DNA from: Anaerolineae bacterium
Lineage (GTDB): Bacteria; Chloroflexota; Anaerolineae; B4-G1
Reading direction: 5' to 3'
DNA: 39,403 nucleotides
Assembly: GCA_016931785.1 (NCBI GenBank)
Contig: JAFGED010000255.1
Span: 1 to 39,403 of the forward strand
Shown: one piece after another, positions 6,059 to 33,144 of the stretch
Layout of the letters: the number at the start of each line of letters is the position of its first letter
Position numbering within the stretch: the stretch's first letter is position 1
The notes under the pieces: generated by a model
Databases searched by the model: none
Seen by the model: the letters and a program-made list of their open reading frames with translations, nothing else
Told to the model about the DNA's origin: nothing
Program-made: the position numbers and the translations under genes

Positions 6059-6139
6059 GAATGAACAATGGATCAATGAACAATTAACAACTGGACCGCG
6101 TCTTGTTCATTGGCTCATTGTTCATTGTTAATTGCTCAT
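6059..6139. repeat. AACAATG-type repeat with inverted arms
   Basis: Heptamer-like units (AATGAACAATG, AATGAACAATTAAC) face their complements (TTGTTCATTG, CATTGTTAATTG). It spans the end of the 1054-residue HdrA gene, provides its last residues and stop codon, and fills the gap to mvhD. Confidence 0.8.
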
Positions 6140-9248: not shown

Positions 9249-9261
9249 TGAGCGCTCCTTT

Positions 9262-9570: not shown

Positions 9571-9648
9571 TTTGCACCTCCAAATTTGAATTGATTGTCG
9601 TGTCGGTTTGGTTCAGTGGTGTCATCAATGGGTAGCTCTTGTCTCTCT

Positions 9649-10749: not shown

Positions 10750-10751
10750 TC

Positions 10752-11180: not shown

Positions 11181-12935
11181 TCAGACTCCCACCAATGCGT
11201 CGATCTGCGCCAGCACCTGCTCCTCGGTAAAGTGCTGCAAGCGGATGGCTTTGGATGGGCAGGCTGACGCACAAGCCCCGCATCCCTTGCACAGCACCGC
11301 GTTGATGCGTGAGACGCCCCACAGCGGGTGCAGCGCCGGCGCGCCGTAGGGACACACCTCGACGCACATCCCACACCCGGCGCACAGCTCCTCCTCCACC
11401 ACGGCCGTGGCCGATTCCGCCAGCACCGTGCCGCGCAGCAGCGGAATCAGCGCCGACGAGGCCGCCGCCTTGGCCTGGGCGACGGTGTCGGGGATGTCCT
11501 TGGGCCCCTGGCAGCAGCCGGCCAGGAACACGCCGTCCACCGCCGTATCGACCGGGCGCAGCTTGGGGTGCAGCTCCAGGAAAAAGCCATCCGGCGAGCG
11601 CGGCAGCTTGAGCAGTGTGGCGATGCTGTCGGCGTTCGCTCGCGGCTCCATCCCCACGGCCAGCACCACTAGGTCAGCCTCGATCTCGATGGGCTGGCCC
11701 AGCAGCGTATCCTCCGCGATCAGCGCGACGCGATCCCCCCGCCGCACGATCTCCGAAACGTTCCCGCGCCGGTAGATCACGCCTTTTTTACGTACCTCGT
11801 CGTAGAATTCCTCGCCGCCCTTGCCAGAAGTGCGCACGTCCATGTAAAAGACAGCCACGGCGGTTTCGGGCAGCAGATCTTTCACCAGATGGGCCTGCTT
11901 GGCGGCGACCATGCAGCACACCCGCGAGCAGTACGGGTTGCCCACCTGGGCGTCGCGCGACCCGACGCATTTTATAAAAGCCACGCTGCGGATTGCGGAT
12001 TGCGGATTGGGGAGTAGAGATTGGAGATTGGAGACTGGAGATTTTGCCTGAAGCAGGCGCTCCATCTCCAGCGTGGTGATGACGTTGGGATACTGGCCGT
12101 AGCCGTACTCCGGCTTGCGGCGCGGGTCAAAGGCGTCGTAGCCGGTAGCGACGACAATCGAGCCGACTTGGTAGATCGGTAGATCGGTAGATCGGTCACC
12201 TTCACCGGTTTCCCAGTTTCCCAATTTACCAACGCTGACCTCGAAATTGCCCACATATCCCTCTATCTTGGCCACTCGTGAGCCCAGCAGCACCGCGATG
12301 TAGGGATGCGACTGCACGCGCTCGATCAGCGGGTCCAATAGCTCCGCCGCCGACTCCAGGCTGGGGTAGGTGCTGTCGAGTTCGGCCACGCGGCCGCCTA
12401 AGTGATCGCTCTGTTCCACCAGCGTGACCGGGAATCCGGCGTCGGCGATGTCGAGTGCGGCGACCATCCCTGCCAGCCCGCCGCCGATGACGAGTGTGCC
12501 CGGTGTGACCTCGACCTCGCGCGCCTCCAATGGTTCCAACAATGCAGCTCTGGCCACCGCTGAGGCGACCAGCGTCTTGGCCTTTCCCGTCGTCTCCGCA
12601 CCTTTGACGTGCACCCACGCGCACTGCTCGCGGATGTTGGCCATGTCGACCAGGTATGGGTTCAGCCCGGCCTTCTCGGCTGCGCCGCGGAACGTCGGTT
12701 CGTGCATGCGCGGCGAACAGGAAGCCACCACGACCCGGTTGAGGTCGTGTTCCTCGATATCCTGCCGGATCAGCGCCTGTCCTGGATCAGAGCACATGTA
12801 CATATAGTCGCGCGCCACGATGACGCCGGGCAAGCCGGCCGCAAACGCCGCGACTGCCTCCACGTCGACCGTCGCAGAGATGTTCACGCCGCAGTGGCAG
12901 ATGTAGACGCCAATACGAGGTTTTGGATTCAGCAT
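11181..12935 (-). CDS. hdrA: HdrA, single module with N-terminal linker domain and two C-terminal [4Fe-4S]
   Basis: A 584-residue protein. It begins with the HdrA N-terminal cluster domain (CHCGVN from 13, ASCSPR, NIREQCAWVH), then the FAD domain (GGGLAGM), the CCMVAAK signature, and a C-terminal ferredoxin pair (CAGCGMCVEVC, CKGCGACASAC). A TTG 15 nt upstream also opens the frame, but the ATG at 12935 has GAAGAGA before it and fits the family start. Two in-frame repeat tracts interrupt it, at about 233-256 and 297-316. The second lies just before the conserved strand that leads to KCVGSRD. It is coupled to mvhD downstream and follows HdrCB after a 56-nt palindromic gap. It probably complements the 481-residue HdrA, which lacks exactly these N- and C-terminal domains. 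Confidence 0.93.
   Translation of the reverse strand: MLNPKPRIGVYICHCGVNISATVDVEAVAAFAAGLPGVIVARDYMYMCSDPGQALIRQDIEEHDLNRVVVASCSPRMHEPTFRGAAEKAGLNPYLVDMANIREQCAWVHVKGAETTGKAKTLVASAVARAALLEPLEAREVEVTPGTLVIGGGLAGMVAALDIADAGFPVTLVEQSDHLGGRVAELDSTYPSLESAAELLDPLIERVQSHPYIAVLLGSRVAKIEGYVGNFEVSVGKLGNWETGEGDRSTDLPIYQVGSIVVATGYDAFDPRRKPEYGYGQYPNVITTLEMERLLQAKSPVSNLQSLLPNPQSAIRSVAFIKCVGSRDAQVGNPYCSRVCCMVAAKQAHLVKDLLPETAVAVFYMDVRTSGKGGEEFYDEVRKKGVIYRRGNVSEIVRRGDRVALIAEDTLLGQPIEIEADLVVLAVGMEPRANADSIATLLKLPRSPDGFFLELHPKLRPVDTAVDGVFLAGCCQGPKDIPDTVAQAKAAASSALIPLLRGTVLAESATAVVEEELCAGCGMCVEVCPYGAPALHPLWGVSRINAVLCKGCGACASACPSKAIRLQHFTEEQVLAQIDALVGV
11987..12045. repeat. GCGGATT and GGAGATT heptamer tract, in frame
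   Basis: Three GCGGATT units pass into GGAGATT, GGAGATT, GGAGACT, GGAGATT. It is translated in the 584-residue HdrA immediately before the strand leading to KCVGS. Confidence 0.85.
12167..12236. repeat. TTGGTAGATCGG tract with inverted half, in frame
   Basis: AGATCGGT units followed by CCGGTTTCCCAGTTTCCC and CAATTTACC. Same family as 582-674, 15253-15311 and 24263-24334. It adds about 23 residues to the 584-residue HdrA. Confidence 0.85.
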
Positions 12936-12952
12936 GATCTCTTCAAGCAAAG

Positions 12953-12991
12953 CGTGAAGCGTAACACGTAATGCGATCCTTACGTTTCACG
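12953..12991. repeat. Intergenic inverted repeat between HdrCB and HdrA genes
   Basis: Arms CGTGAAGCGTAA and TTACGTTTCACG (one mismatch) sit directly after the HdrCB stop codon. Related in sequence to 29401-29450. Confidence 0.75.
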
Positions 12992-14131
12992 TCACAACGC
13001 CAGGCTCACCAGTTCCATGATATCCATCACCTTGAGCCGTTCCTCCAACCCTTGCACCTTCACCGCATCCTCCAGCGTCAGCAGGCAGAAGGGGCAGGCC
13101 ACGGCCAGGATTTCGGCGCCGGTGTCGGCGGCTTCCTGCACGCGCTGGAAGGCCAGCCGCTCCTCCAGGTTGGTGCCCTCGTTCCACATGCGCCCGCCGC
13201 CGCCTTCGCAGCACAGGCTGCGCTCCCGGTTGCGATCCATCTCCACCAGCTTGACGCCGGGGATGGCGTTCAGGATCGCGCGCGGCTCGTCGAACACGTG
13301 GTTCTGTTTGCCCAGGAAGCAGGGGTCGTGGTAGGTCACAACTCTCTCCACATCTTTCTCCCACGCGCCCACACTCCCGAACTTTAGTTTGCCTTGCTCG
13401 ATCAATTCCGCGACAAGTTGTGTATAATGGAGCGCCTCGACCCCATCCAGCCCATACTCGTTCTTGAACGTGTTGAAGCAGTGGGGCGAGGTGGTCACGA
13501 TGCGGCTGGCCCCCACGCTGCGGAACAGCTCGCCGTTCTCCTCGACCAGCATCTCGAACAGGCCCATCTCGCCCATGCGGCGCACCTCGTTGCCGCAGCA
13601 GCTTTCGTCGGCGCCTAGCGTGCCAAAATTCACCCCTGCCGCAGCCAGTGTTTGCGCCAGCGCGCGGGCGACTGGCTGTACGCGCTGGTCGTAGGAGGGG
13701 ATGCAGCCGACGAAATAGAGCGTCTCGCACCCTTCCTGGGCCGCATTGATCTCTAGCTCCCCTGCCCAGTTGGCGCGGTCCTCGCGCGCGATGCCGGTAG
13801 GATTCCCCTGGCGGAAGATGGCCATCAGCGCCGCGCCGACGGTATCCGGGATGCGGCCGCTCTCCACCAGCTGGCCGCGCAGGGCGATGATCAGCTCCGC
13901 CGGCTCCACGTCCTTGAGACAGCGCTCGACGCAGGTGAAGCAGCAGGTGCAGTCCCACAGCTCCGGATGGGCGTCCACGTCCATCTCCGGTTCGACCAGC
14001 ATGTGGTAGATCAGACTGCGGATGTTGAGCGTCGTCTTGCGCGCCACGGGGCAGCCGCCCGTGCACTTGCCGCACTGGATGCAGCCCAAAAGCTCCAATT
14101 GTTCGACCATCTGAGATGTCTTTACTGCCAT
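12992..14131 (-). CDS. HdrC-HdrB fusion (HdrD-like) with two CCG domains
   Basis: A 379-residue protein. The N-terminal HdrC part holds two [4Fe-4S] motifs (C17/20/23/27 and C61/64/67/71). The HdrB part has two cysteine-rich CCG domains: GCIPS...SCCGNE...PHC and DPCFLGK...CCEGGGGRMW...CPFC. In HdrB these bind noncubane [4Fe-4S] clusters where a disulfide or other acceptor is reduced. It should therefore be the catalytic or high-potential arm of the bifurcating complex. Its substrate in a bacterium without CoM/CoB is unknown. One nucleotide separates its ATG from the hdrA(481) stop, with GGAG 7 nt upstream, so it is coupled. Confidence 0.93.
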   Translation of the reverse strand: MAVKTSQMVEQLELLGCIQCGKCTGGCPVARKTTLNIRSLIYHMLVEPEMDVDAHPELWDCTCCFTCVERCLKDVEPAELIIALRGQLVESGRIPDTVGAALMAIFRQGNPTGIAREDRANWAGELEINAAQEGCETLYFVGCIPSYDQRVQPVARALAQTLAAAGVNFGTLGADESCCGNEVRRMGEMGLFEMLVEENGELFRSVGASRIVTTSPHCFNTFKNEYGLDGVEALHYTQLVAELIEQGKLKFGSVGAWEKDVERVVTYHDPCFLGKQNHVFDEPRAILNAIPGVKLVEMDRNRERSLCCEGGGGRMWNEGTNLEERLAFQRVQEAADTGAEILAVACPFCLLTLEDAVKVQGLEERLKVMDIMELVSLAL

Positions 14132-14132
14132 C

Positions 14133-15578
14133 TCAACGCTCCATAGCGACCGTGGCTTTTTCGCATCGCCTCAGCGCTACCAATGCCGATGCGGCTGCAG
14201 CCTTGGCCTGCGCGACCGCGTCTGGGATGTCCTTGGGTCCCTGGCAGCAGCCCGCCAGGAAGACGCCATCCGCCGAGGTCTCCACCGGATGCAGCTTTGG
14301 GTGCGCTTCCTGGAAGAAACCGTCTGGCGAGCGTTCCAGCCCTGCCAAAGCCGCCAAGTCTGCCGCGTCTTCTCGCGGCACGACCGCCGTCGCCAAGATG
14401 ACCAGGTCCGCCTCGACTTCGACAGGTTGGCCCAATAGCGTATCTTCTGCTGCGACGATCAGCTTACCATTCCGCCGGTACACCTCCGATGGTTCCCCGC
14501 GCCGATACGTGACGCCCTCCTTCCGCACCCGGTCGTAAAACTCTTCGTACCCTTTGCCGCCTGCGCGCACGTCCATATAAAAGACCGTGATCCGCGCGTC
14601 GGGGATTCTATCGCGCACCAGGTGGGCATGCTTGGCCGTGTACATACAACAGATGCGCGAGCAGTAGGGCACGCCGGTGTGCGGGTTCCGTGAAGAAGCC
14701 TGGCGCTCTGCGCCAGAGCTTCTTCCTAAGGAAAAAGCCCTCCGGGCTTTTTCTCGCGACCCCACGCACTTGACCAGCACCACGTCCTTGGGCTCTCTGC
14801 CATTGACCACGATCTTGCCCAGCGTCGGCCCAGATGCGGACGAGAGCCGCTCGAACTCGATCCCCGTCATCACCTCGGGGTACACGCCGTAGCCGAACTC
14901 GGGCTTGAGGCGCGCGTCCAGCAGGTCGAATCCCGTGGCGACGATGACCGCGCCTACCTCCAAATTCACAAACTCCTCTTGCTGCTCGAAATCGATGGCG
15001 CCGGCAGGGCAGGCATCTTTACAAAGAAATGTCTTGCCGCACTTGCCGCGCGTTAGAAACAGGCAGACGCTGGGATCGACCGTGTACTTGAGCGGCACCG
15101 CCTGTGGGAAAGGTACGTAGATCGCTGCCTGCTTGGAGATCCCCTCGTTGAAACGGTTGATGACGCGCCCCTTCATCCTGCAGGCTTCCGCGCACGAACC
15201 GCAGCCTGTACATTTTTCGACGTCCACGTAGCGCGGTTTCTTACGAATTCGTACTTGGTAGACTGACAAATTGGTAGATTGGTCGTTGGTTTCCCGGTCT
15301 GCCAGTTTCGCATCTGCCCTTTCAACAGAGACTACTTCCGAATATGTCATCAGCTCGATGTTCGGGTGATTCCCCACATCCACCATCTTGGGCGTCAGGA
15401 TGCATGACGAGCAGTCCAGTGTGGGAAAGGTCTTGTCCAACTGCGCCATGCGCCCGCCGATGGACGGCTCCCGCTCCACCAGGTAGACCGGATAGCCCGC
15501 GTCGGCGATATCGAGCGCGGCCTGGATGCCGGCGATCCCACCGCCGATGACTAGCGCCGCTGGCTTGCTGCCGTCCAA
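14133..15578 (-). CDS. hdrA: HdrA, short form lacking the terminal cluster domains
   Basis: A 481-residue protein: FAD motif GGGIAGI (12-18), DCSSCILTPKMVD, a ferredoxin motif CTGCGSCAEAC, further cysteines (CLF, CGKTFLC, C near KDACPAG), and the CCMYTAK signature. There is no CHCG linker domain and no C-terminal ferredoxin pair. The start is TTG at 15578, with GGAG 8 nt upstream. It is in the same frame as the preceding 1526-residue gene, separated only by TAG and one AGA codon. Residues about 89-108 and 274-296 are encoded by repeats, the second by two strong hairpins (14692-14753). The function is probably electron bifurcation together with HdrCB and the 584-residue HdrA. Confidence 0.92.
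   Translation of the reverse strand: MDGSKPAALVIGGGIAGIQAALDIADAGYPVYLVEREPSIGGRMAQLDKTFPTLDCSSCILTPKMVDVGNHPNIELMTYSEVVSVERADAKLADRETNDQSTNLSVYQVRIRKKPRYVDVEKCTGCGSCAEACRMKGRVINRFNEGISKQAAIYVPFPQAVPLKYTVDPSVCLFLTRGKCGKTFLCKDACPAGAIDFEQQEEFVNLEVGAVIVATGFDLLDARLKPEFGYGVYPEVMTGIEFERLSSASGPTLGKIVVNGREPKDVVLVKCVGSREKARRAFSLGRSSGAERQASSRNPHTGVPYCSRICCMYTAKHAHLVRDRIPDARITVFYMDVRAGGKGYEEFYDRVRKEGVTYRRGEPSEVYRRNGKLIVAAEDTLLGQPVEVEADLVILATAVVPREDAADLAALAGLERSPDGFFQEAHPKLHPVETSADGVFLAGCCQGPKDIPDAVAQAKAAAASALVALRRCEKATVAMER
14692..14753. repeat. Two adjacent hairpins, in frame
   Basis: First hairpin: GAAGAAGC-CTGGCGC with its complement (one bulge). Second: GAAAAAGCCC-TCC-GGGCTTTTTC, perfect. Both are translated in the 481-residue HdrA right after KCVGSR. 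Confidence 0.85.
15253..15311. repeat. TTGGTAGA-type tract, in frame
   Basis: CTTGGTAGACTG, AATTGGTAGATTGG, then inverted CCCGGTCTGCCAGTTTCG. It adds about 20 residues near residue 89 of the 481-residue HdrA. Confidence 0.8.
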
Positions 15579-15594
15579 TCTCTAATCTCCAATC
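15575..15594. repeat. GGAGATT heptamer tract across a stop/start junction
   Basis: On the minus strand GATTGGAGATTAGAGATTGG carries the TAG stop of the 1526-residue gene and the TTG start of the next hdrA. Confidence 0.7.
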
Positions 15595-18500
15595 GCCACC
15601 GCGTCCAGCATCTCGTACACCTGCACTATCTCAAATCCCCTCTGTTGGCTGGCTTTGTTAGGGCAGGCGACGACGCACGCCCCGCAGCCCTGGCACAGCA
15701 CATCGATCACCTCGGCATAAGCGCCGCCTGGCTCGAGTTCACGCGCGTTATAGGGGCAGACCTCGACGCACAGCCCGCAGGCGGAGCACAGCCGCGGATT
15801 GACGCTGGCCACGATGGGCGTTGCCTCCAACATATCCTTGGCCAGGAGCCCGACCGCGCGCACCGCCGCGCCGTGGGCCTGGGCGATGGTCTCGTCGAGG
15901 AAACGCGGCGAGTGGGCCATCCCGCACAGGTAGATGCCGTCGGCGGCAAAATCGAGCGGGCGCAGCTTGGCGTGGGCCTCGAGGAAAAAGCCGTCCTCGT
16001 TTAGCGGCACCTTGACCAATCGGGCTAACGCGTCATTGTCCAAGTTCGGCTCGATCCCGGCGCTGAGCACCACGAGGTCGGGATGGAGGGTCAATTCTTC
16101 GCCTAGCACTGTATCCCAAACCGCTACCTGCAATCTCGAATCCCCACGGATGTACTCATCCGCAATCTCTACCCTCGGCTTGCGTTCCATCTCGTACTGC
16201 AAAAACATCACACCCTGCCGCCGCGCCTCGCGGTAGTACCACTCTTTGAAGCCAAAGGTACGGATGTCGCGATAAAGGATGGTGACGTCGGTTTCAGGGC
16301 TGCGCGCCTTGATCGCCAGCGCGTTCTTGATCGCCTCGGTGCAGCAGATGCGGGAGCAGTAGGGGTGCTCCTCGTCGCGGGAGCCGACGCACTGGATCAT
16401 CACCACTGATTGCATGTTGGCGGATTCGAGATTTGGGATTTGAGATTCAAACTCACGTTGGGTGATGACGCTTGGATGCTTGCCGTAAAGATACTCCCGT
16501 GGCTCGATCTGCCGTGCGCCGGTGGCGACGACGATGATCCCGTGCTGGATTTCCTCTCGCCGTTCGCCGGCCAGTTCCACGGTCGTCCGGTATTGGCCCA
16601 CGTATCCACCCACATTCACGACCTCGGCACCGGTGAGCACTGCAATGAGCGGGTGCGATGACACGGCCTCGATCGTCTGTCTCAGAAGCGTTTGAGGCTC
16701 AACGCATTGGTCATTGTCAATTGTTGATTGTTCATTCGCTGGCAAAGGCACAAAGATGTGCCGTAAATTTCCTCCCAGTTCTTCCTCCCGCTCGACCAGC
16801 GCGACCGGAAAGCCCTGCTCGGCGATGGAGAGCGCCGCCGTCATTCCTGCAAGCCCTCCGCCGATGACGAGTGCCCGTTTGTTGACCTCAAACGTGCCGT
16901 GCTGGATGGGACGCTGCTTGCACGCCCGTGCGACCGCCATCGCAGCCAACTCCTTGGCCTTGTCTGTCGCGCTGCGGTGATCGTCCCGGTGCACCCACGA
17001 GTCCTGCTCGCGGATGTTGGCCATCTGGAACAGGTGCGGGTTGAGGCCCGCGCCGCGGATTGTCTCCTGGAACAACGCCTCGTGCGTGCGCGGCGTGCAG
17101 GAGGCAACCACGACCCGGTTCAGCCTGTGCTCCTCGATCCGCTCGCGGATGCGCTGCTGCGTGTCCTGCGAGCAGGTGTAGGTGTTCTGCTCGGCGTAGG
17201 CCACGTAGGGCAGGCCCGCGACGTAATCGACGACCTCGGGCACGTCTACCACGGCGCCAATGTTGATGCCGCAGTGGCAGATAAAGACGCCCACGCGCGG
17301 CAGTTCGTCGCTCACGTCGCGCTCCTCCGGCCAGACCTGCTCCTGCGTCAGGGCGCCGCGCGCGTCGGCCAGCAGCGCCGAGGCCCGGGCTGCCGCGCAC
17401 GAGGCTTCAATCACCGTCTCGGGGATGTCCTTGGGCTCGGCGAATGCACCGGCGGCAAAGATGCCCGACCTGCTCGTCTGCGCTGGCTGCATGGCGGGGG
17501 GCTCGGCAAAGCCATAGGCGTTCAACGCGACCCCAATCCGGGAGGCGAGGGATTGCGCGCCCTCTGACGGTTGCAAACCCACCGATAATACCACCAGGTC
17601 GAATTCCTCCTCGACCGGAGATTGGCGATTGGAGATTACACTTGCCCCTTTGTTTCCTTGTCTCTCCATCTCGCCGGCGTACCTCAAAATCACATTCCGC
17701 GTCCCCGGGTCCCCCCGTGCAAACGACACGGCGGAGCGCACGTAGCGCACGCCGTACTCCCGTTCTGCCCGCTCGACGTAACGCTCGAACCCCTTGCCGA
17801 AGGAGCGCATGTCGATGTAGAAAATCGTCGGCTCGACTGCCGGATTGTGCTCCTTGGCGATGAGGGCCTCTTTGGTGGCATACATACAGCACACCGAGGA
17901 GCAGTATCCGTGCGACCGTTCCGGTTGCATGGCGCAAGAGGTATCGCGGGAACCGACGCATTGGATGAAGGCGATCTTGCGCGGATGCTTGCCATCGGAA
18001 GGGCGCTGCACCACGCTGCCCCACGGGCCGGAGGCCGAGAGCATGCGCTCGAACTCGATGCTGGTGACCACGTTGGCGCAGCGCCCGTAGCCCAGCTCGG
18101 GGCGGATGTCGCCCGGCATTGTCTCCAGGCCCGGCGTCAGGATGACCGCGCCCACGTCGAGTTCCACGATTTCTTCGCGCATCTCATGGTCGATGCAGTT
18201 CTTTTGGCAGGCGTAGACGCATTGCAGGCATTCGGAGCAGATGCCGCAGGAGAGGCAACGCGCCGCCTCAACCCGCGCCTCTTCTTCGGTCAGGCCGCCA
18301 TAGACCTCGCGAAAATCCTGCACCCGTTCGGCTGCGGGCGCTTTGGCGACCTCGTGGCGCGGCGCGTCGGACGCTGCACCGGATGAAACCAGCGCTCGCG
18401 CCTCCTCCTCGCTCAACTCGGCCACGTCGCTCTCCCCTCCCGCGAAGCGGGGGGGGCTGGAGGGGGTCTCCTCATGCAGATAGTCGTCGATCGATCGCGC

Positions 18501-20162
18501 GGCCCTGTGCCCCGCGGCAATCGCGTCCACCACAAAACTCGTCCCGGTCACCACGTCGCCGCCGGCAAACAGCCCTGGCACCTCCGTCGCCAGTGTCTGG
18601 GGATCGACCGCTGCCTGCCGCTGGCGCACGGTCACTTTCTCCGGCAGGCACGAGACGTCCGCTTGCTGTCCGATGGCAAAGATCACCACGTCGGTGGCGA
18701 TGATGTGTTCCGTCTCCGGAACCTCGTCAAAGTCGGGCCGCCCATCGACAAAGCCGCGAAAGTCCACCTCGGCGCAGCGCACGCCGGTAACGTGATCGTC
18801 AGCGGACGTGATTTCCTTGAAGGTGCGCGAAGCAAAGACCTCCACGCCCTCTTCCTCGGCGTCGAACACCTCCCAATCGTGAGCGGGCATCGTCTCGCGG
18901 CTTTCGAGGCAGGCCATGCCGACCCAGCTTGCCCCCAGGCGCACGGCGGTCTGCGCCGCGTCTACCGCGACGTTGCCGCCGCCCAAGACCAGGACACGGA
19001 GGTTGGAGACTAGAGATTCGAGATTATCCCCTGCTTTCTCCGTGCCTGCTAACGCTACGTGGCGCAGCAAGTCGGTGGCGGTGATCACTTCCGGCAGAGC
19101 GACGCCGGGGATGGGCAAGCGGACGCCTCGGTGCGCGCCCACTGCGGCAAAGACGGCGTCATAGTCGTTTAGCAGCGCCGCTGCATCCTCGACCTTGTGG
19201 TTGCATTTGAGGTCGATGCCCAGCGCGAGGATGTCATCGACCTCGCGCTGCACCAGGTCGTAGGGCAGGCGATAGGCGGGGATGCCGACGCGCATCATCC
19301 CACCCGGCACCGGAAGCGCCTCGAAAACGGTCACGGCGTGGCCGCCTAGCGCCAAATCCTGCGCGCAGGTGAGTCCCGCTGGCCCAGAGCCGATTACAGC
19401 TACGTTCTTGCCTGAAGACTCTCTTGCTATTTGGAATTTGCGATTTGCGATTTGCGATTTGTTCTCATGCGCCCAGTCAGTGACAAACCGCTTCAGCCGC
19501 ATGATGTTCACCGGCGCGTCCACTTTTGCGCGCGAGCAGGCATCCTCGCACTGATGGTTGCACACGCGCCCGCAGATGGAGGGGAAAGGGTTATCCTCGC
19601 GAATGGTGTGATAGGCGTCGGCGAAGCGGCCCTCGCGGATCAGTGCGATGTAACCTTGGGCGCGCTGGTGGATGGGGCACGCGTCGCGACAGGGGGCGCG
19701 CCCGCGCTTCTCGATCACGTAGGCGTTGGGAATCGCCTGGGGGTAGAGCTTGTAGGCTGCCCGCCGCTCCGACATCTCGATGTTGAACTGGTCGGCGCAA
19801 ACGACGGGGCATACTTGCGCGCAGTCGCCGCAGCCGGTGCACTCGTCTGCGATCACGTAGCGCGGCTTTTGGCGCACGCGCGCCTTAAAGTTGCCTGCCT
19901 CGCCCTGGATACTCTCCAGTTCGGCGTAGGTCATTATTTGGATGTTAAGGTGCCGCCCGCACTCTACCAGCTTGGGCGAGAGGATGCACATGGCGCAGTC
20001 GTTGGTGGGGAACGTCTTGTCGAGCTGCGCCATCGTTCCCCCGATGGCCGGGCTCTCATCCAGCAAGTACACCTTGAACCCGGCTTCTGCCAGGTCCAGC
20101 GACGCCTGGATGCCGCCGATGCCAGCACCGACGACGAGGGCCGCGCCGATTGGGTTTGTCAT
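15582..20162 (-). CDS. hdrA: HdrA-GltD nested fusion flavoprotein, 1526 aa
   Basis: Domain order: HdrA FAD domain (GAGIGGI, DCAMCILSPK); ferredoxin motif C108/111/114/118; a GltD/NfnB-like domain (about 150-640) with CRDACPIHQ, an FAD motif GSGPAGLT near 255 and a GGGNVAVDAAQT motif near 395; CLSCGICSECLQC; the rest of HdrA module 1 (CCMYATKEA); linker domain CHCGIN near 960; HdrA module 2 (GGGLAGM); and a C-terminal ferredoxin pair. This predicts at least three flavins and NAD(P)H use (inference from the fold). In the linker domain the usual REQCxWVH reads REQDSWVH, so a cluster ligand is Asp1054. At least six repeat tracts are translated in frame. It is the complete paralogue of the gene at 1-4374, and starts 7 nt after the GNAT stop. 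Confidence 0.94.
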   Translation of the reverse strand: MTNPIGAALVVGAGIGGIQASLDLAEAGFKVYLLDESPAIGGTMAQLDKTFPTNDCAMCILSPKLVECGRHLNIQIMTYAELESIQGEAGNFKARVRQKPRYVIADECTGCGDCAQVCPVVCADQFNIEMSERRAAYKLYPQAIPNAYVIEKRGRAPCRDACPIHQRAQGYIALIREGRFADAYHTIREDNPFPSICGRVCNHQCEDACSRAKVDAPVNIMRLKRFVTDWAHENKSQIANRKFQIARESSGKNVAVIGSGPAGLTCAQDLALGGHAVTVFEALPVPGGMMRVGIPAYRLPYDLVQREVDDILALGIDLKCNHKVEDAAALLNDYDAVFAAVGAHRGVRLPIPGVALPEVITATDLLRHVALAGTEKAGDNLESLVSNLRVLVLGGGNVAVDAAQTAVRLGASWVGMACLESRETMPAHDWEVFDAEEEGVEVFASRTFKEITSADDHVTGVRCAEVDFRGFVDGRPDFDEVPETEHIIATDVVIFAIGQQADVSCLPEKVTVRQRQAAVDPQTLATEVPGLFAGGDVVTGTSFVVDAIAAGHRAARSIDDYLHEETPSSPPRFAGGESDVAELSEEEARALVSSGAASDAPRHEVAKAPAAERVQDFREVYGGLTEEEARVEAARCLSCGICSECLQCVYACQKNCIDHEMREEIVELDVGAVILTPGLETMPGDIRPELGYGRCANVVTSIEFERMLSASGPWGSVVQRPSDGKHPRKIAFIQCVGSRDTSCAMQPERSHGYCSSVCCMYATKEALIAKEHNPAVEPTIFYIDMRSFGKGFERYVERAEREYGVRYVRSAVSFARGDPGTRNVILRYAGEMERQGNKGASVISNRQSPVEEEFDLVVLSVGLQPSEGAQSLASRIGVALNAYGFAEPPAMQPAQTSRSGIFAAGAFAEPKDIPETVIEASCAAARASALLADARGALTQEQVWPEERDVSDELPRVGVFICHCGINIGAVVDVPEVVDYVAGLPYVAYAEQNTYTCSQDTQQRIRERIEEHRLNRVVVASCTPRTHEALFQETIRGAGLNPHLFQMANIREQDSWVHRDDHRSATDKAKELAAMAVARACKQRPIQHGTFEVNKRALVIGGGLAGMTAALSIAEQGFPVALVEREEELGGNLRHIFVPLPANEQSTIDNDQCVEPQTLLRQTIEAVSSHPLIAVLTGAEVVNVGGYVGQYRTTVELAGERREEIQHGIIVVATGARQIEPREYLYGKHPSVITQREFESQIPNLESANMQSVVMIQCVGSRDEEHPYCSRICCTEAIKNALAIKARSPETDVTILYRDIRTFGFKEWYYREARRQGVMFLQYEMERKPRVEIADEYIRGDSRLQVAVWDTVLGEELTLHPDLVVLSAGIEPNLDNDALARLVKVPLNEDGFFLEAHAKLRPLDFAADGIYLCGMAHSPRFLDETIAQAHGAAVRAVGLLAKDMLEATPIVASVNPRLCSACGLCVEVCPYNARELEPGGAYAEVIDVLCQGCGACVVACPNKASQQRGFEIVQVYEMLDAVAIGD
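16147..16162. repeat. Small palindrome in frame
   Basis: CGGATG-TACT-CATCCG inside the 1526-residue gene, flanked by CAATCTC units. The same protein position carries a different repeat (322-351) in the paralogue. Confidence 0.5.
16420..16452. repeat. GAGATTTG/GGATTTG tract, in frame
   Basis: GCGGATTC, GAGATTTG, GGATTTG, GAGATTC units in the 1526-residue gene, just before the strand leading to IQCVGSR. Confidence 0.7.
16699..16740. repeat. CATTGTCAATTG-type tract, in frame
   Basis: GCATTGGTCATTGTCAATTG followed by TTGATTGTTCATTCG. Related to 6059-6139 and translated near residue 1145 of the 1526-residue protein. Confidence 0.7.
17617..17668. repeat. GGAGATTGGCGATT plus TTGTCTC tract, in frame
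   Basis: Two repeat types side by side, adding about 17 residues before VEEEFDL in the 1526-residue protein. Confidence 0.75.
18430..18472. repeat. C-run/G-run palindrome, in frame
   Basis: CTCCCCTCCCGC and GCGGGGGGGG arms in the 1526-residue gene. Family of 2981-3028. Confidence 0.65.
19000..19028. repeat. GGAGACTAGAGATT tract, in frame
   Basis: GTTGGAGACTAGAGATTCG then AGATTATC, inside the GltD-like domain of the 1526-residue protein. Confidence 0.65.
19426..19463. repeat. GCGATTT heptamer tract, in frame
   Basis: One GGAATTT and three exact GCGATTT units. It adds about 12 residues in the linker before the GltD FAD motif. Confidence 0.85.
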
Positions 20163-23319: not shown

Positions 23320-24243
23320 CTACACGCGCAAGTACGAGTCGGTGTAAATTACCTTGTTCAGCACCACCTGCACCGTCTTCCAGATGTCGGCCTGCGCGGG
23401 ATCGGACATGTCGACGTCGCCAGGCTGCAGTTCTTCCATCGCCGCCACCCGGTCGTGCAGTTTGACCAGCAACCGGTTTAGCGCGCTGCTCTCGTCCCGC
23501 TGCTCGACCACGCGAATCCATTTCTTGAGTTCCTCATCCAGCGGATCGGCGATCACCATGTCGATTCCAGCGCCCATCAGCATCACCATGTAGGTGCGGT
23601 TGAGCAGCGGGCGCATCTCGTGAGGCACGGCATTGGAGACGTTCGAAAGGCCGCCGTTGGTCAATGGAGGCGGATCCCAGGCGAACTTGAGTGTGCGCAC
23701 CGCCTCGATGCACTCCGGGCAGTACTCCTGGCAGCCGGAGACGGTCAGAACCAACGGGTCGATGATCAGGTCGCTGATGGGAAAGTCGATCTCCAGCATG
23801 TGCGGTATCAGCTTCTCCAGCGCGATGCTAACCCGCTCGTCGGACCCAACGGGGATCATGCCCTCGGCCATTGTCAGCGCTACCAGGCGTGTGTTGTACT
23901 TTTTGGCCACGAGGGGCACCGTTTCCAACCGCTCCTCGCGCGCGTCGGTGGAGTTGATGATGGGCTGCGCCTTGGAGACGGTCTCGCAGGCGGCCTCGAT
24001 GGCGGCCAGGTTGGTTGTATCGAAAACCAGCGGTACGTCTACCACTTTCTCGACCGTCTCGACCAGCCAGGGCAGGATTTCGTGCCCGGCTTTCTTTTGT
24101 GGGCCGATGTTGAGGTCGACTGCGTTCGCCCCGGCCTCGACCATCTTGACCGCCATATCCTGGAAGAACTTGCCGTCCCGGTTGGCGATGCCCTCTTTGA
24201 CCTTGGGCGAGATGATGTGGATGTTCTCTGCAATTATGTACAT
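23320..24243 (-). CDS. acsE: AcsE, methyl-THF:corrinoid iron-sulfur protein methyltransferase
   Basis: This enzyme transfers the methyl group of methyl-THF to the cobalt of the AcsC/AcsD corrinoid protein. It is a pterin-binding TIM barrel: DLNIGP (43-48), D75 in FDTTN, IINSTD (95-100), and GLSNVSNAVP (198-207), which contains the asparagine that helps activate the pterin. It has 307 residues against about 262 in the classical enzyme; the extra part is a C-terminal helical extension (about 262-307). The Shine-Dalgarno GGAGG lies 8 nt before the ATG. It lies between cooC and folD, separated from each by a short repeat-filled gap. Confidence 0.95.
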   Translation of the reverse strand: MYIIAENIHIISPKVKEGIANRDGKFFQDMAVKMVEAGANAVDLNIGPQKKAGHEILPWLVETVEKVVDVPLVFDTTNLAAIEAACETVSKAQPIINSTDAREERLETVPLVAKKYNTRLVALTMAEGMIPVGSDERVSIALEKLIPHMLEIDFPISDLIIDPLVLTVSGCQEYCPECIEAVRTLKFAWDPPPLTNGGLSNVSNAVPHEMRPLLNRTYMVMLMGAGIDMVIADPLDEELKKWIRVVEQRDESSALNRLLVKLHDRVAAMEELQPGDVDMSDPAQADIWKTVQVVLNKVIYTDSYLRV

Positions 24244-24262: not shown

Positions 24263-24334
24263 TTGGTTGGTAGGCTGGTAATTGCTACATTGGTAGACTG
24301 GTTTGGATACCAAGCTGCCAGTTTACCAATTTAC
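24263..24334. repeat. TTGGTAGGCTGG tract with inverted half
   Basis: Fills the cooC-acsE gap. TTGGTAGGCTGG and ATTGGTAGACTGG face CCAGTTTACCAATTTACC, and the cooC stop codon lies in it. Confidence 0.8.
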
Positions 24335-25140
24335 CCGCTCTCGAATATACTTTGTGCGATGTGATTCACTGCTTTGTAAACGGCTGCGTCCGCCGGGAGC
24401 TCCACCAGCGGGCGACCGCTGAACTCGAATTCTGCCATCGCTGGATCCTCCGGCACCGTGCCGATTAACTTCAGCCCGCTCTGCTCAATGGCCTTTGCCA
24501 ACGGCGTGGGCAACCCGGATGCTCCCATATCCCCGCTCTCGCTCCCTTGCACCCGGTTGATGATCAGGTACGTCCGCCCCACGCCGATCTCCAGCCCTGG
24601 CACCATTTCGTGCATCCGCTGCGCGGTGATGAGGCCTCGCTGCGTGGGATCGGTCACCAGCAGCAGCACGTCCACGTCGCGCGTGGTGCGGCGACTGAGG
24701 TGTTCCATCCCCGCCTCGTTGTCGATGACCACGTAGTCGTATTGCTTTCCCAGCCGATCGATAATCACGCGCAGCATCTGGTTGGCCGCGCAGTAGCAGC
24801 CTTGGCCTTCAGGTCGGCCCATCGCCAATAGGTCGACTTTGTCCCCCTCGGTGATGGCCATTTGCACCTGATAGTCCAGGTACTCTTGTTTGCTCATGCC
24901 GCCGGGCATCGAACCGGCCAGCGCGCCGCTGGTTTGCACCATGTCGAGCATATCCTCGCGGATATCTCCTACGTTGCCCTCGATATCCAACCCCAGCACC
25001 ATGTTTAGATTGGTGGCGGGGTCGGCGTCGATGGCCAGGATGGAGCCGTCGTTCTTCTCCATCAAGTAGCGAATCAAAAGCGCCGAGATCGTGGTTTTCC
25101 CGGTGCCGCCTTTGCCTGCCAGTGCAATCGTTGTAGTCAA
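24331..25140 (-). CDS. cooC: CooC/AcsF-type nickel-insertion ATPase
   Basis: A MinD-type ATPase that matures the Ni centres of CODH or ACS. The 269-residue protein has the deviant Walker A KGGTGKTT (10-17), IDADPATN (37-44) and the CYC motif C115/C117, which binds nickel at the dimer interface in CooC. The stop codon lies at the edge of a TTGGTA-type repeat tract that fills the gap to acsE. The upstream gap holds a 15-bp hairpin. Whether it serves CooS or AcsB cannot be decided; it is the only such ATPase in the window. Confidence 0.94.
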   Translation of the reverse strand: MTTTIALAGKGGTGKTTISALLIRYLMEKNDGSILAIDADPATNLNMVLGLDIEGNVGDIREDMLDMVQTSGALAGSMPGGMSKQEYLDYQVQMAITEGDKVDLLAMGRPEGQGCYCAANQMLRVIIDRLGKQYDYVVIDNEAGMEHLSRRTTRDVDVLLLVTDPTQRGLITAQRMHEMVPGLEIGVGRTYLIINRVQGSESGDMGASGLPTPLAKAIEQSGLKLIGTVPEDPAMAEFEFSGRPLVELPADAAVYKAVNHIAQSIFESG

Positions 25141-25506: not shown

Positions 25507-27453
25507 TTACGGGCTTGTCGCCTTGTCGCTTGGCCCCTGTACCGCTACCGATGGAAACAGGCTTTCGTCCGTATGCGGCAAGAACATCGCCGCGTTGAAC
25601 TCGTCGAAAAAGGTGTTGTCTGCGGAGAGTTCCAGGTAAGTCATCATCCCACTTATCCTGCGCACGCGATCGCGCATCTCCCGCGAGACAAGTGCCATAT
25701 AAGCCCCTTTTATCGAGGTGTTGCCCAAGAATTGGAAACTCTCGAAAGGTTTGTCGGGAAGCAATCCAATCTGGATCGCATTCTCCACGTTGATGTACTG
25801 TCCAAATGCCCCGCCGATGAGCACCCGCTCCACGTCTGCCAGGCTCAGGCCCACGCTGCGGGCCAGGATGGAGAATCCGGCATATATAGCGGCCTTGGCC
25901 CGCATCAGGTTGTCGATGTCCACTGCGGTGATGGCGATGTCCTCGCCGGTGGCGCTCTCGTCAGCCCAGGCGACCACGTATTCGGCGCCGTGTTCCCCCT
26001 CCCTCACTCGAGACCTGGCGGGTTTAGAAAAGCCTGCCAGGTCTAGGCGAATATTTCCACTCTTGTCGATCACACCAGAGACGAACATCTCCGCCAACAG
26101 TGAGATCAGCCCGGAGCCGCAGAAGCCGCGCGGTTTGCCGTCTCCTATGACGCGATACGAGACTTCGAAGGACTCGGGGTCAATCCACACTTCCTCGATG
26201 GCCCCGGCTGTGGCGCGCATCCCATGCACGACCCCCGCGCCCTCGAAGGCTGGTCCGGCAGAGCAGGCGCAGGAGATGAGCCACGTGCAGTCTCCCAGCG
26301 CTATCTCACCGTTGGTGCCGATGTCGATAAACAGTGAAAGTGTTCCGGACTTGCACATCTCTGAGCTCACCACGCCGGCGGTGATATCGGCGCCGACGTA
26401 GGAGGCAACCCCAGGCAGGCAGTCCACGCGTCCCACGGAATTGATGTTCAATCCAACCGCGTAGGCTCGCAGCGGAGGAAGTTCGTTGATGGTGGTGATA
26501 AAGGGCATCAAGCGGATAGTCTCTGGTGGGATGCCGGCGAAGAGGTGGATCATCGTGCTGTTTCCGGCGACCACCGCTTTGTAGATCTCGTCCGTGCTGA
26601 TGGAGCGTTCCTGGGCCGCCTCTTCGATCAATCGATTGAGGGTCCCCATAACCAGGCTTTGCAGCTCCTCCAGGCCGTTCCCCTTGGAGGCGTAGATGAT
26701 GCGCGAGATGACATCTTCACCGCGTGCGATCTGCCCGTTGTAATCGGCTTTCTGGGCCATCACCTCGCCGCTGATCAGGTCGACCAGCCAGACGTGGTTA
26801 CTCGTCGTGCCGATGTCGATGGCGACGGCCCACAGGCTTTCCAGGTGCTCCCCCGGGATGATGTCGATGACGCAGGGTGGGCCGTTGGGGCGATCCCATG
26901 CATCCAGTTCCACCACCACAGTGACCGTCCATTCTCCTTCTCGCAGGACGCGCCCCAATTTCTTTAGGACGGCTAGTTGGATTCGCAGCCCTTCGAGGTT
27001 ATAGCGGCGTTCGAGCTCCCTGCGCAGGCGCGACCAATCGTCGGTCTGATCTTGCATCGAGGGCGGGTCCAGCGTGATGGCATATTTGCGCAGCGGCTGA
27101 TCGTGGATGTCGTAGGAGAATGGCAGCTCGACCTTTGCCGCGCGTTTGCCTTCCTTCAGCCGCCGCTCGATCTTTTCCTGCGGCGGGATGCTGACGACCA
27201 GGTCTCCTTCGACCGTCGTCTGGCAGGCCAGGGCATAGCCAGCCTCCACGTCGGCGGCGGAGAGGTGCTGTGTGGAACGCCGCCGCACCGCACCTTCTTC
27301 GACGATAACGGCGCAGCGGCCACAGCGCCCCTGCCCGCCGCAGGGTAGCTGCAGATCGATGCCGGCCTGTTGGGCTGCCTCACTAAGCAAGGTGCCTGTT
27401 GGTATTTCTACACGCTTATCAGCGGGTTTGAAGTGAACTGTGATGGTGTCGAT
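25507..27453 (-). CDS. acsV: AcsV/RACo, ATP-dependent reductive activator of the corrinoid iron-sulfur protein
   Basis: This protein reduces inactive Co(II) corrinoid protein back to Co(I) using ATP. It has an N-terminal plant-type [2Fe-2S] domain (CGGQGRCGRC), a middle linker, and a C-terminal ASKHA ATPase (AIDIGTTSN, DIGTNGE, CSAGPAFEGAG). The frame has no ATG or GTG after the in-frame stop at 27490-27492, and the first TTG (27390) would remove the first beta strands of the ferredoxin fold. An ATC at 27453 stands 7 nt after GGAGG (27461-27465) and restores the full domain (about 648 aa), so I place the start there. This would be a rare AUC start or a base error. An in-frame palindrome lies at 26011-26045. 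Confidence 0.88.
   Translation of the reverse strand: MDTITVHFKPADKRVEIPTGTLLSEAAQQAGIDLQLPCGGQGRCGRCAVIVEEGAVRRRSTQHLSAADVEAGYALACQTTVEGDLVVSIPPQEKIERRLKEGKRAAKVELPFSYDIHDQPLRKYAITLDPPSMQDQTDDWSRLRRELERRYNLEGLRIQLAVLKKLGRVLREGEWTVTVVVELDAWDRPNGPPCVIDIIPGEHLESLWAVAIDIGTTSNHVWLVDLISGEVMAQKADYNGQIARGEDVISRIIYASKGNGLEELQSLVMGTLNRLIEEAAQERSISTDEIYKAVVAGNSTMIHLFAGIPPETIRLMPFITTINELPPLRAYAVGLNINSVGRVDCLPGVASYVGADITAGVVSSEMCKSGTLSLFIDIGTNGEIALGDCTWLISCACSAGPAFEGAGVVHGMRATAGAIEEVWIDPESFEVSYRVIGDGKPRGFCGSGLISLLAEMFVSGVIDKSGNIRLDLAGFSKPARSRVREGEHGAEYVVAWADESATGEDIAITAVDIDNLMRAKAAIYAGFSILARSVGLSLADVERVLIGGAFGQYINVENAIQIGLLPDKPFESFQFLGNTSIKGAYMALVSREMRDRVRRISGMMTYLELSADNTFFDEFNAAMFLPHTDESLFPSVAVQGPSDKATSP
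26011..26045. repeat. AGACCTGGC palindrome, in frame in acsV
   Basis: AGACCTGGCGGGTTT faces AAGCCTGCCAGGTCT. It is translated in the ASKHA part of AcsV, next to LDLAGFSKPARSR. Confidence 0.75.
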
Positions 27454-29460: not shown

Positions 29461-32400
29461 TTACGCTTTACCGCACAGTTCGTCAATCATCGCGTTAATC
29501 CGCCGCACCGACTCTGGGTGGCGCAGCACGACGATATCGGCAGCCGACTCGACAAGCGCTGCCGCCGTCGTTGTCTCCCAGTTGATGGCGCGTTCTTTCC
29601 AATCGCCCCAGGCTTCGGGCACGCCCTCGCCAACCTTGGTCTCTTTCTGCCGCCAGGCCTCGTAGCCCACGGTGACGATCATCGGCATCTGGGTCATGCT
29701 GTCGCCCTGCAGGGCCGAAAGTCGCAGCCGCTCCATCACCGAGTAGCCATACTCCATGCCGTAACCCACGCCGGCGCATGTTGGGTCCATGATGATGCGC
29801 TCGGGCGGCAGGCCCATGTCGCTGATGAGAATGTTGAGCTGCTTGGCCAGGTTGACGTCCATTGCCGTGCGGGCAATGACGAGGTGATCGCTCGCCAGGG
29901 CTGATGCGACGATGGTGCGGTAGTTTTTCTCCTCGCAGATACCCAGCAGCAGGCGCTCGCCCTTGGTTACCTCTGCCACGGGGACGAGGAGCTCGTTGTC
30001 GGCGTCTGCTTGTCCTGGACCCAGCACGACCAGCGGCAGACCGGTGGCCCCGAGTACCTTCTTGACGGCGGCCACGGCGTTCTGCGGCGTGTTGGGATTG
30101 CCATCGGCGTCAGTCAGGCTGAGTTGGAGCGCGATGACGTCGGCGCCGGCCTTTTCGGCGGCCTTGGCCCCCTCGCCGGGATCGCTCATCGCGCCGCCCC
30201 AGGCCTCCGCCAGCAGCGGCGACCAATCATCGGGCTTGCGATCTTGGATCTCGACGGCGACCACGGGCTTGTTGGGCAGCGAGCCCTCAAAGTCGAGGAA
30301 GGGCATCGCCGTCTGCCCGCCCACGGTGACTGTCTTGGAGCGTGTGCCGCCTCCATCCGTCGCTCCTAGTGTGACCGTGCGCACCGAGCCCGTCCACTTT
30401 TCCTTGGAAAAGTCCAGAGCCTCGTCGGCTGCGCTCCACTTGGGTGCGGCGACGCGTTCGATCGGTGCGGCCGCCTTTGCGGGTGCCTCTGCCGCAGGCG
30501 CGGGTGCGGCGGTCGGTACGGCGGTGGCGACCGGCGCTACTGTAGCTAACGGCGCCGCAGGTGGGGCGCCGCCTAGCTCCACCAGTGCGGCTTCCAGCGC
30601 GCGCCGGATGGAGCCCATAACGACGTTCGCTGTTGCCTGGACAATGGCCTCCACACTGGCATCTGCAGACAAGCCCGCTGGCGCAGGCGTAGGTGCGGGC
30701 GCTGGTGCCGGTGCAGGCTTTGCTGCAACCGGTGTAGGCGCGGGAGCCGGCTCGGCCTTGGCCTCTGCCTTTGGTGCTGCAGGGGCAGGTTTACTCTCTG
30801 CCGCTGGTGCTTCTTGCTTCTTGCCTCTTGTCTCGTCTGCCGCGATGGTCTTGACCGCTTCAGCAGCGCCGGAGGCGGCCTGCATCACGCCCATCTCCAG
30901 CACGGGGTGGTTCTTTTCCTTGATCCACGCCACCAGCTCATCTACGGTGGTGGCGCAGCGTTCGTCGGCGATGCGGTCGATCAGGTCGGGGATGCCCTCG
31001 CGCTCGGCCACGACCTTGAACTCCTCGGTCATGCTCTCCTTGAGGAAGCTGGACATCCACACGATGCGCTTGAAACCGCCATCGGCGGAGATGAACTTGG
31101 GGCTGGTCAGGTAGAACTTGCCCACGCCCATCACGCCTGGTGTCTGCAGCCCGCCGCCGGCCATGCCGGCCAGCGTCGAGAAGGTCATCCCGGCGGGCGT
31201 CATGCTCGGGTCCTCGCGGCTGACGACCATCACCCCCTCGGCCTCGGGGATGTACATCATGATGCACTCGACGCAGCCACAGGCCGTCATCGGGTTCTCC
31301 ATGATCGAGTACATCGTGACTTCTTGAACAGTGCCGTGCGAATTCTTGACGGCGGTCTTGTTCACGCCGGTGAAGTAGCCCTTCACCGGATCGACGCAGT
31401 CGCCCTTAGGCACCGGCTGGTTGGGGCCGGTGGGGTTGATCTCATAGGACGCCTTGCAGTCCAGCCAGTTGTACGCGCCGCACAGTCCCAGCCGCTGCGG
31501 GCTGACGATACAGACGTGGTTTGGGGCAAAGGACTGGCACAGCGTGCAGTCGTAGAATGTGTCGACCGCTTCGTCGGTCAGGTTGGCCAGGCGCACGTTG
31601 CGGTAGTCGTAGGCTTTGCGCGCCTTCTCCAGCCACTCGGCGTGCATGGCGGGATCGGTGATGATCTTGACCTGCACCTTGTCCACGATGGCGCCAAAGT
31701 CGGCGTGGAAGCGGGCGTGCATGATGTCGCCAAAGTGGCGCAGGGTAAAGCCCTTCTCTGCTGCCGCTTTGCTGATGCGGATCCAGGTGATGTCGCGCTG
31801 GCCGATGTGCTGGATGCCGCTGGCGGCGTTGACAAAGTAGTGCAACTGCCGCTCCAGCACCGGCTCAAAGTCCTCCTGCATCTTGCGCCCGGCGACCTCG
31901 ATCACGAATCCTAGGTCTATCGAGCCACCCTCTTCGACGTCCTCGAACCCGGGGCCGATGATCTCGATCTTGCCGTCCTGGACTTGATCCATTGGGGCCA
32001 TGCGCAGATACTCGTAGGCGCGGCTATTCTTGCCGCCGAACTCGATCCGCATGTCGGCCCGCCGCACCACCTCGCCCTCGAAGGCGGAGCCGTAGGCCAC
32101 GGGGACCGGCACGTCGGTGATCTTGATTTTGACGCCGCGCACCTCGATGGCGCGCTGCACCAGCTTGACCGCCTTCTCGGTGTCGCTCTCGCCTTCGATC
32201 TCGTTCCACGGCATGGAGATGACGTGCTCGTAGCGGGTGACGCCGGTGGGCAGGATCTCGGGGATGACGGTGTCGGCGATGGTGGGGAAGCCGTAGGAGA
32301 TGGCCCCCGCCGCCGCCGCGTACTTCAAGTCGTCCACCTCGCCCAGCGCCAGCACGAAGGCGAACACGCGGAACTTGTTGTAGAGCAGGATCTCGCGCCA

Positions 32401-33144
32401 CTGGCCGGGATGGAGGCCGCCGAAGGTCAGCGCCGACCTGGTGGCGAATCCCATCGGGTAGATGGCGGAGATGGTGTCCTTGCCAAAGGGCACGATGTAG
32501 GTATCGTACCCCATTTCCACGCCTTCCTCCTGCAACTGATCGATGACGGAGCGGCCGTTGGTGTTGCCACACAGGAAGATGAGGATGTTGCGCTTTTGCA
32601 GCTCGCGCACGATGGAGACGGCGGCCTCGTTGGAGCGGGCCGCGCCGACGATGGCGGCAAAGCCCGGCATACGGCCATCGACCAACTGGATGCCCCACGA
32701 GCGCAACTGGATGTCGTCGATGGGGCCGCTCAGGTGGCCGTCGCCCTGCCAGTCGGGATAATCGGTGGAGCCGGTCAGTTCCAGCCCGGGGTAGGCGCCT
32801 GGCTGTTCGCCGTAGACAAAGCGCACCGCCTCGATGGTCTCGGCGGCCAACAGGGTCGCCTGCCCGCTATCGAGCGTCTCGCCCAGGTAGGGCACCCACA
32901 GGCTCTCGTCCGGCACGGGATGCAGCAGCCGCTTGGCGTGACCCAGCACCGGTGGAAGATCTCCCAGGGTAGCCACCTTGTGGTCGAGCATGCCGTAGAT
33001 CACGGGCAGGTAGTAAGCCGTGTTGGGGAAGGCCACGGGTGTCTCTGGCCCCTTTTCTTTCAGGGCCTGGTTGAGCAAGCCTTCTGCCTCGGCGACCAGC
33101 GCGTTGGCGCCCCGGATGGCTCTGGTAGCGATGTAACGTGACAT
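29461..33144 (-). CDS. acsB: AcsB-AcsD fusion: acetyl-CoA synthase joined to the corrinoid protein small subunit
   Basis: A single 1227-residue reading frame. Residues 1 to about 752 are complete bacterial acetyl-CoA synthase, including the N-terminal CODH-docking domain. The A-cluster ligands are C533, C536, C545 and C555, and C622-G-C624, with the same spacings as the Moorella enzyme (506/509/518/528 and 595/597). Residues about 753-905 are an Ala/Pro/Lys/Glu-rich linker with a predicted helical island at about 824-858. Residues about 905-1227 are a full-length AcsD TIM barrel (for example DFEGSLPNKP, IIMDPTCAGVGYG). No stop or frame break is visible across the junction. It starts 2 nt after the acsA stop; GGAGG at 9-10 nt. 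The fusion should tether the methyl donor to the A-cluster. Confidence 0.95.
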   Translation of the reverse strand: MSRYIATRAIRGANALVAEAEGLLNQALKEKGPETPVAFPNTAYYLPVIYGMLDHKVATLGDLPPVLGHAKRLLHPVPDESLWVPYLGETLDSGQATLLAAETIEAVRFVYGEQPGAYPGLELTGSTDYPDWQGDGHLSGPIDDIQLRSWGIQLVDGRMPGFAAIVGAARSNEAAVSIVRELQKRNILIFLCGNTNGRSVIDQLQEEGVEMGYDTYIVPFGKDTISAIYPMGFATRSALTFGGLHPGQWREILLYNKFRVFAFVLALGEVDDLKYAAAAGAISYGFPTIADTVIPEILPTGVTRYEHVISMPWNEIEGESDTEKAVKLVQRAIEVRGVKIKITDVPVPVAYGSAFEGEVVRRADMRIEFGGKNSRAYEYLRMAPMDQVQDGKIEIIGPGFEDVEEGGSIDLGFVIEVAGRKMQEDFEPVLERQLHYFVNAASGIQHIGQRDITWIRISKAAAEKGFTLRHFGDIMHARFHADFGAIVDKVQVKIITDPAMHAEWLEKARKAYDYRNVRLANLTDEAVDTFYDCTLCQSFAPNHVCIVSPQRLGLCGAYNWLDCKASYEINPTGPNQPVPKGDCVDPVKGYFTGVNKTAVKNSHGTVQEVTMYSIMENPMTACGCVECIMMYIPEAEGVMVVSREDPSMTPAGMTFSTLAGMAGGGLQTPGVMGVGKFYLTSPKFISADGGFKRIVWMSSFLKESMTEEFKVVAEREGIPDLIDRIADERCATTVDELVAWIKEKNHPVLEMGVMQAASGAAEAVKTIAADETRGKKQEAPAAESKPAPAAPKAEAKAEPAPAPTPVAAKPAPAPAPAPTPAPAGLSADASVEAIVQATANVVMGSIRRALEAALVELGGAPPAAPLATVAPVATAVPTAAPAPAAEAPAKAAAPIERVAAPKWSAADEALDFSKEKWTGSVRTVTLGATDGGGTRSKTVTVGGQTAMPFLDFEGSLPNKPVVAVEIQDRKPDDWSPLLAEAWGGAMSDPGEGAKAAEKAGADVIALQLSLTDADGNPNTPQNAVAAVKKVLGATGLPLVVLGPGQADADNELLVPVAEVTKGERLLLGICEEKNYRTIVASALASDHLVIARTAMDVNLAKQLNILISDMGLPPERIIMDPTCAGVGYGMEYGYSVMERLRLSALQGDSMTQMPMIVTVGYEAWRQKETKVGEGVPEAWGDWKERAINWETTTAAALVESAADIVVLRHPESVRRINAMIDELCGKA

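Follow-up and report, generated by a model that had tools for sequence, protein, structure and literature searches.

The window (the whole stretch of 39,403 bases that was analyzed) is one entire contig (G000:C232) of a 4.81 Mb draft genome in 481 contigs, and it carries a single gene in which acsB, for the acetyl-CoA synthase (ACS) that forms acetyl-CoA from CO2, and acsD, for the small subunit of the methyl-delivering corrinoid protein CFeSP, are joined in one frame of 1227 amino acids, with an ATG start and the stop included in its coordinates (Table 1). The earlier note had described an uninterrupted 1227-codon frame at 29461-33144; the frame is genuine, with the correction that it belongs to the minus strand and that the same interval contains stops when read on the plus strand. 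Downstream of the fusion lie acsC (whose product has a CdhD-family domain by profile match), then acsV, a CooC-like ATPase gene, acsE and folD; on the other side are acsA, fhs and a DUF166 gene.

Several other features of this neighborhood deserve mention. The DUF166 protein, which is related to DfsP, adjoins fhs and the acs operon consistently across Anaerolineae, and a small open reading frame directly upstream of acsA has a weak heavy-metal-associated domain and a possible role in metal handling. Further along the contig is a run of large heterodisulfide-reductase-like flavin/Fe-S proteins (1054, 578, 589, 379, 481 and 1526 aa), which probably serve the methyl branch as electron-transfer partners; two of them are unusually long and may themselves be fusions.

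Table 1. Features of the window and of intein-bearing or divergent ACS loci in related genomes
Feature	Position	Strand	Evidence
acsB-acsD fusion gene	29461..33144	-	open frame, Pfam/NCBIfam matches
AcsB part, residues 1-753 (A1, middle and C-terminal A-cluster domains)	30886..33144	-	Pfam, NCBIfam, Foldseek
A-cluster cysteine region (C533, C536, C545, C555, C622-G-C624)	31273..31548	-	sequence, alignment
Ala/Pro/Lys/Glu-rich linker, residues about 754-905, mostly predicted disordered	30430..30885	-	composition, AlphaFold2
Conserved helical island, residues 831-856	30577..30654	-	AlphaFold2 helix, conservation, HMM versus shuffles, single copy in genome
Conserved pre-AcsD segment with Trp903, residues 894-917	30394..30465	-	alignment of fused versus separate AcsD
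AcsD part (CFeSP small subunit), residues about 906-1227	29464..30429	-	NF003376, Foldseek
acsC, separate CFeSP large subunit, [4Fe-4S] motif C17, C20, C25, C42	28027..29373	-	Pfam/NCBIfam, sequence
acsV, corrinoid reductive activase	25507..27390	-	Pfam/NCBIfam
CooC/AcsF-like nickel-insertion ATPase (MinD-like)	24331..25140	-	named by position and family
acsE, methyl-THF:CFeSP methyltransferase	23320..24243	-	Pfam/NCBIfam
acsA, CO dehydrogenase, 2 bases upstream of fusion	33147..35156	-	Pfam/NCBIfam
fhs, formate-THF ligase	35563..37347	-	NCBIfam
DUF166 gene	37418-38554	-	
Small open reading frame upstream of acsA	35166-35543	-	
Heterodisulfide-reductase-like run	6084-20162	-	
Intein-bearing AcsB	L029:13429-18765	-	Pfam
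Intein-bearing AcsB	L077:5205-10529	+	Pfam
Intein-bearing AcsB	L078:7904-13501	-	Pfam
Intein-bearing AcsB	L079:4263-11402	+	Pfam
Further intein-bearing AcsB	L081, L082, L084, L161, L162		Pfam
Divergent ACS paralogue	G006:C46:34655-36382		search of relatives
Divergent ACS paralogue	G009:C339:6312-8174		search of relatives
Divergent ACS paralogue	L025 (G033:C217)		search of relatives

Each half of the protein is an ordinary member of its family; the novelty is the architecture. In the AcsB half, PF18537 (the A1 domain) matches at 21-110, PF03598 at 347-499 and PF19436 at 512-753, all over their cut-offs, giving the three-domain form of bacterial ACS, and the half scores 970 bits against NF040764 (cut-off 800). 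The AcsD half scores 370 bits against the NCBIfam model NF003376 over residues 911-1224 (cut-off 280). A Foldseek search with an AlphaFold2 model of residues 28-1227 placed the first part with the ACS structures 8cjc_B and 1ru3 and the last part, a TIM barrel, with the CFeSP small subunit 4djd_D (TMt 0.93). Thus the proposal of a complete AcsB followed by a complete AcsD in a single frame is borne out, domain order included. So is the proposal that all A-cluster cysteines are present at the Moorella spacing: the six from C533 to C624, with the CGC motif, are 3, 9, 10, 67 and 2 residues apart, identical to the spacing of Cys506/509/518/528/595/597 of the Moorella enzyme, and they are invariant among 11 aligned fused chains.

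A genome-wide search found neither a second AcsB C-terminal domain nor a stand-alone AcsD. The genome's sole AcsD copy is therefore the C-terminal part of the fusion and not the separate chain that is usual, if not strictly defining, for this subunit. We also considered whether an independent AcsD might start within the linker and rejected the candidates, which are in-frame GTG, TTG or ATG codons at 825, 831, 843, 855 and 921 lacking an obvious Shine-Dalgarno sequence; none of the possible start codons from the island up to AcsD is preceded by an obvious ribosome-binding site.

A search for proteins spanning both domains, as the earlier note had advised, returned 20 distinct fused chains, and the fusion is present, well beyond what chance would give, in 20 or more distinct genomes that were assembled independently, with order, reading frame and style of linker all preserved. 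Nearly all are Anaerolineae (Chloroflexota), and some of the loci come from other isolates. Among 40 relatives, most genomes of the same family that encode ACS carry it (G001, G002, G004, G006, G007 and G009, the copies of G002 and G009 being interrupted by contig ends), as do two from another family (G023 and G035), while G003, G011, G015, G025, G027 and others have separate acsB and acsD. As samples and not a census, the class-wide counts were 139 ACS-bearing genomes of 346, with the fused frame in about a dozen (at least seven family groups) and separate genes in most ACS-bearing Anaerolineae; none of 38 ACS-bearing genomes from other Chloroflexota classes and none of 92 from Bacillota had the fusion. 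Six further AcsB frames, additional to the 20 chains, reach the end of their contigs either inside a tail that resembles the linker or shortly after AcsB ends. One fusion (L098:5995-9735) belongs to a genome labeled Thermoguttaceae (Planctomycetota); because that order is otherwise almost without ACS (2 of 78 sampled genomes), horizontal transfer or misbinning is the likely explanation. The genes acsC, acsV and acsE are kept beside the fusion in relatives. In most separate-gene cases acsB and acsD are adjacent in the operon, so that fusion would have been a short step.

The linker (residues about 754-909) measured about 156 aa, of which Ala makes up 36% and Pro 16%, in agreement with the Ala/Pro-rich stretch of about 150 residues that had been proposed; linkers are Ala/Pro-rich in all fused chains and vary in size (about 140-290 residues), none being short. 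The proposed helical island at about 824-858 likewise proved real in prediction and conservation: AlphaFold2 gives one linker helix, at 831-856 (pLDDT about 60-70), flanked by stretches below 50, and the island is conserved far more than its flanks, with a mean pairwise identity of 0.76 in its core versus 0.17-0.46 in most of the flanks. The core, S-x-RRAL-x-AAL-x-ELGG, extends to residue 859, and R847, A849, L850, A852, A853, L857, G858 and G859 are invariant in the 11 aligned fusions, which come from both of the main clades (A and B) that the fused forms make up, together with outliers, in the AcsB tree. An island HMM built on clade A scored 48.1 bits on G049 and 13.8-23.8 bits on four clade-B linkers (two of them at 22.7 and 23.8), with shuffles at most 6.7, and matched the G266 island marginally. 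It did not recognize the linkers of four other clade-B members (L095, L096, L129 and L151), whose island is an amphipathic helix of different sequence. In clade B only (these four and G306, G322 and G268), a second short helix-like stretch of the DVIAQAEAVVEA type lies near the linker start.

The island did not prove to be a known domain, as a PDB search with the linker gave only a low-complexity bactofilin match (E 0.32), and no second copy was found in the window's genome. The AlphaFold2 models gave no confident island contact or docking site. Its conservation, at the level of sequence, is compatible with the docking or oligomerization role that had been suggested for it. The second conserved element, the pre-AcsD segment, has a tryptophan (Trp903) that is found in every fused chain and in no separate AcsD; separate AcsD begins near the IPxEKW motif, typically as MPVEIPxEKW. 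The AcsB end is also distinctive, mostly HPVLxMG in fused and HPALxMPP in separate forms, and separate, untruncated AcsB stops soon past HPAL. Split intermediates, with an island on a stand-alone AcsD or AcsB, were sought among the separate chains and none was seen. Residues specific to fused forms, sought as pointers to a docking partner but confounded by phylogeny, are few in AcsB, AcsD and AcsC and absent in AcsA.

A single clade of fused forms is strongly rejected by the AcsB data (p 9e-64) but not by the AcsD data (p 0.28). Taken with the shared Trp903 and island, these results would fit any of three histories: fusion on two occasions, a single fusion that was later split in some lineages, or recombination affecting the acsD-linker portion.

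Two further observations on ACS came out of these comparisons. The AcsB proteins of several Anaerolineae, fused or not, contain inteins exactly before A-cluster cysteines, at site a before C536 or site b before C622 in fusion numbering (Moorella Cys509 and Cys595); Pfam recognizes their splicing domains (PF14890) and, in some, LAGLIDADG_3. L078 and L079 have inteins at both sites, and G266 combines the fusion with both inteins in a single 2380-codon frame. We found no description of inteins at the AcsB A-cluster among open-access papers. In addition, a divergent second ACS paralogue, with 36-39% identity to residues 138-795, stands beside or replaces the main ACS in some relatives.

Bacterial CFeSP carries its corrinoid on its large subunit, AcsC, in a C-terminal domain that is mobile, and in an AlphaFold3 model of ACS-CFeSP that fits an extended-state map, ACS touches both AcsC and AcsD; formation of that complex required high CFeSP concentrations, which crowded the micrographs (PMC12289521). 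The earlier note had the methyl carrier itself tethered to the synthase, and this holds only in part: because AcsC bears the corrinoid and is encoded by a separate, intact gene here, AcsD having none, the carrier would be tethered only indirectly, through the AcsC-AcsD heterodimer. With that amendment, we think it probable from the sequence comparisons that the fusion is a flexible-arm tether of CFeSP to ACS, a covalent counterpart of the archaeal ACDS association. AcsC would bind the AcsD end of the fusion to form CFeSP, and each ACS would therefore have a CFeSP to itself, held by a flexible arm. Such an arm would hold CFeSP near the A-cluster without putting the methyltransferase AcsE or the activase AcsV out of range, so that one A-cluster would tend to receive methyl groups time after time and CFeSP could still visit both of these enzymes; the fusion would also fix the ACS:AcsD ratio at 1:1. 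Docking is the probable role of the helix and the Trp903 segment, which would position the arm by binding either a partner or one another. By a rough polymer estimate, the linker would have an rms span of about 7-12 nm and could reach about 50 nm at most, and the effective local CFeSP concentration would be about 0.2-1.5 mM.

Other readings have to be weighed against this one. The fusion could be mainly a device for stoichiometry and co-assembly, with equal AcsB and AcsD from each translation, a passive linker and no kinetic tethering; the poor conservation of the flanks beside the island core and the neighboring position of acsB and acsD in most separate-gene operons would suit such a role, but it leaves the conserved helix and the invariant Trp903 unexplained, as well as a linker that has never collapsed in any fusion, and we regard it as unlikely. 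Disordered Ala/Pro linkers are prone to proteases in vitro, so one could envisage a polyprotein from which cleavage within the linker releases AcsB and AcsD as ordinary separate proteins; we consider this very improbable, as the linker has no conserved cleavage-like motif besides the island and Trp903 segment, and a conserved internal helix would be unexpected in a linker that is to be discarded. An assembly or sequencing artefact joining two neighboring genes might be suspected, since all members come from metagenome assemblies and the window from a draft in many contigs. We reject misassembly because the fusion recurs in so many distinct genomes, from different samples, with AcsD parts that are 61-78% identical, linkers that differ and fused-specific residues that are conserved; the chance that an artefact explains it is negligible.

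A further reading is compatible with the tether and goes further: the island and the Trp903 segment may be an oligomerization or docking hub that gathers a number of ACS-CFeSP units into an ACDS-like multienzyme particle, perhaps together with CODH or AcsE. Both clades keep an amphipathic island, whether of the same sequence or only of the same kind, and heptad-like helices (VEQRVERLERAVTTLIGSLVGALAELG) occur in some clade-B members; methanogenic ACS, moreover, has a C-terminal extension beyond its A3 domain with a proposed role in the CODH-CFeSP swing, thought to be important inside the 2.2 MDa ACDS (PMC11474084). On the other side, no relative of the island could be detected in the PDB or elsewhere in the genome, and the hub is to us a tentative possibility. 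The fuller picture, a tethered multimeric CODH/ACS/CFeSP machine in Anaerolineae in which the linker helix and Trp903 assemble several ACS-CFeSP units, is rather doubtful as it stands. If true, bacteria would have a covalent equivalent of the archaeal ACDS, its methyl carrier on a swinging arm and its linker common to two AcsB lineages.

The tether, if such it is, sets this protein apart from the systems known so far. The CODH/ACS of Moorella, Carboxydothermus and C. autoethanogenum has the same three-domain ACS with its A-cluster, the same AcsD fold and the same operon partners (acsA, acsC, acsE and acsV), but in these bacteria AcsB is not joined to AcsD and CFeSP is a transient partner, whereas here one chain includes both, together with the linker, the helix and the Trp903 segment. 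The archaeal ACDS (alpha2-epsilon2, beta, gamma-delta) likewise holds ACS and CFeSP together, but it does so non-covalently and its ACS is without the A1 domain that is present here alongside the covalent AcsD link. The E2 of 2-oxoacid dehydrogenases, to which the earlier note had likened the linker, offers an analogy in its Ala/Pro arms and small helical element linking carrier to core. The likeness stands for the long Ala/Pro linker; it is one of principle only, because the fusion protein has no Pfam match to a lipoyl or peripheral subunit-binding domain, and it differs further in that the corrinoid is in a separate subunit and there is no sequence relation to E2. The note's author knew of no described case of such a fusion, and we found no account of one in the open-access literature, the scope of our search (subscription papers and preprints lying outside it).

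In the bacteria studied to date, the methyl-transfer complex of CFeSP and ACS is transient and hard to capture, and the fusion would provide a natural 1:1 tethered complex for structural work. It would also make it possible to ask directly whether the Wood-Ljungdahl pathway is limited by corrinoid-protein shuttling, and it offers a design idea for engineered CO2 fixation. For the biology of these organisms, it suggests that bacteria and archaea reached different means of holding ACS and CFeSP together.
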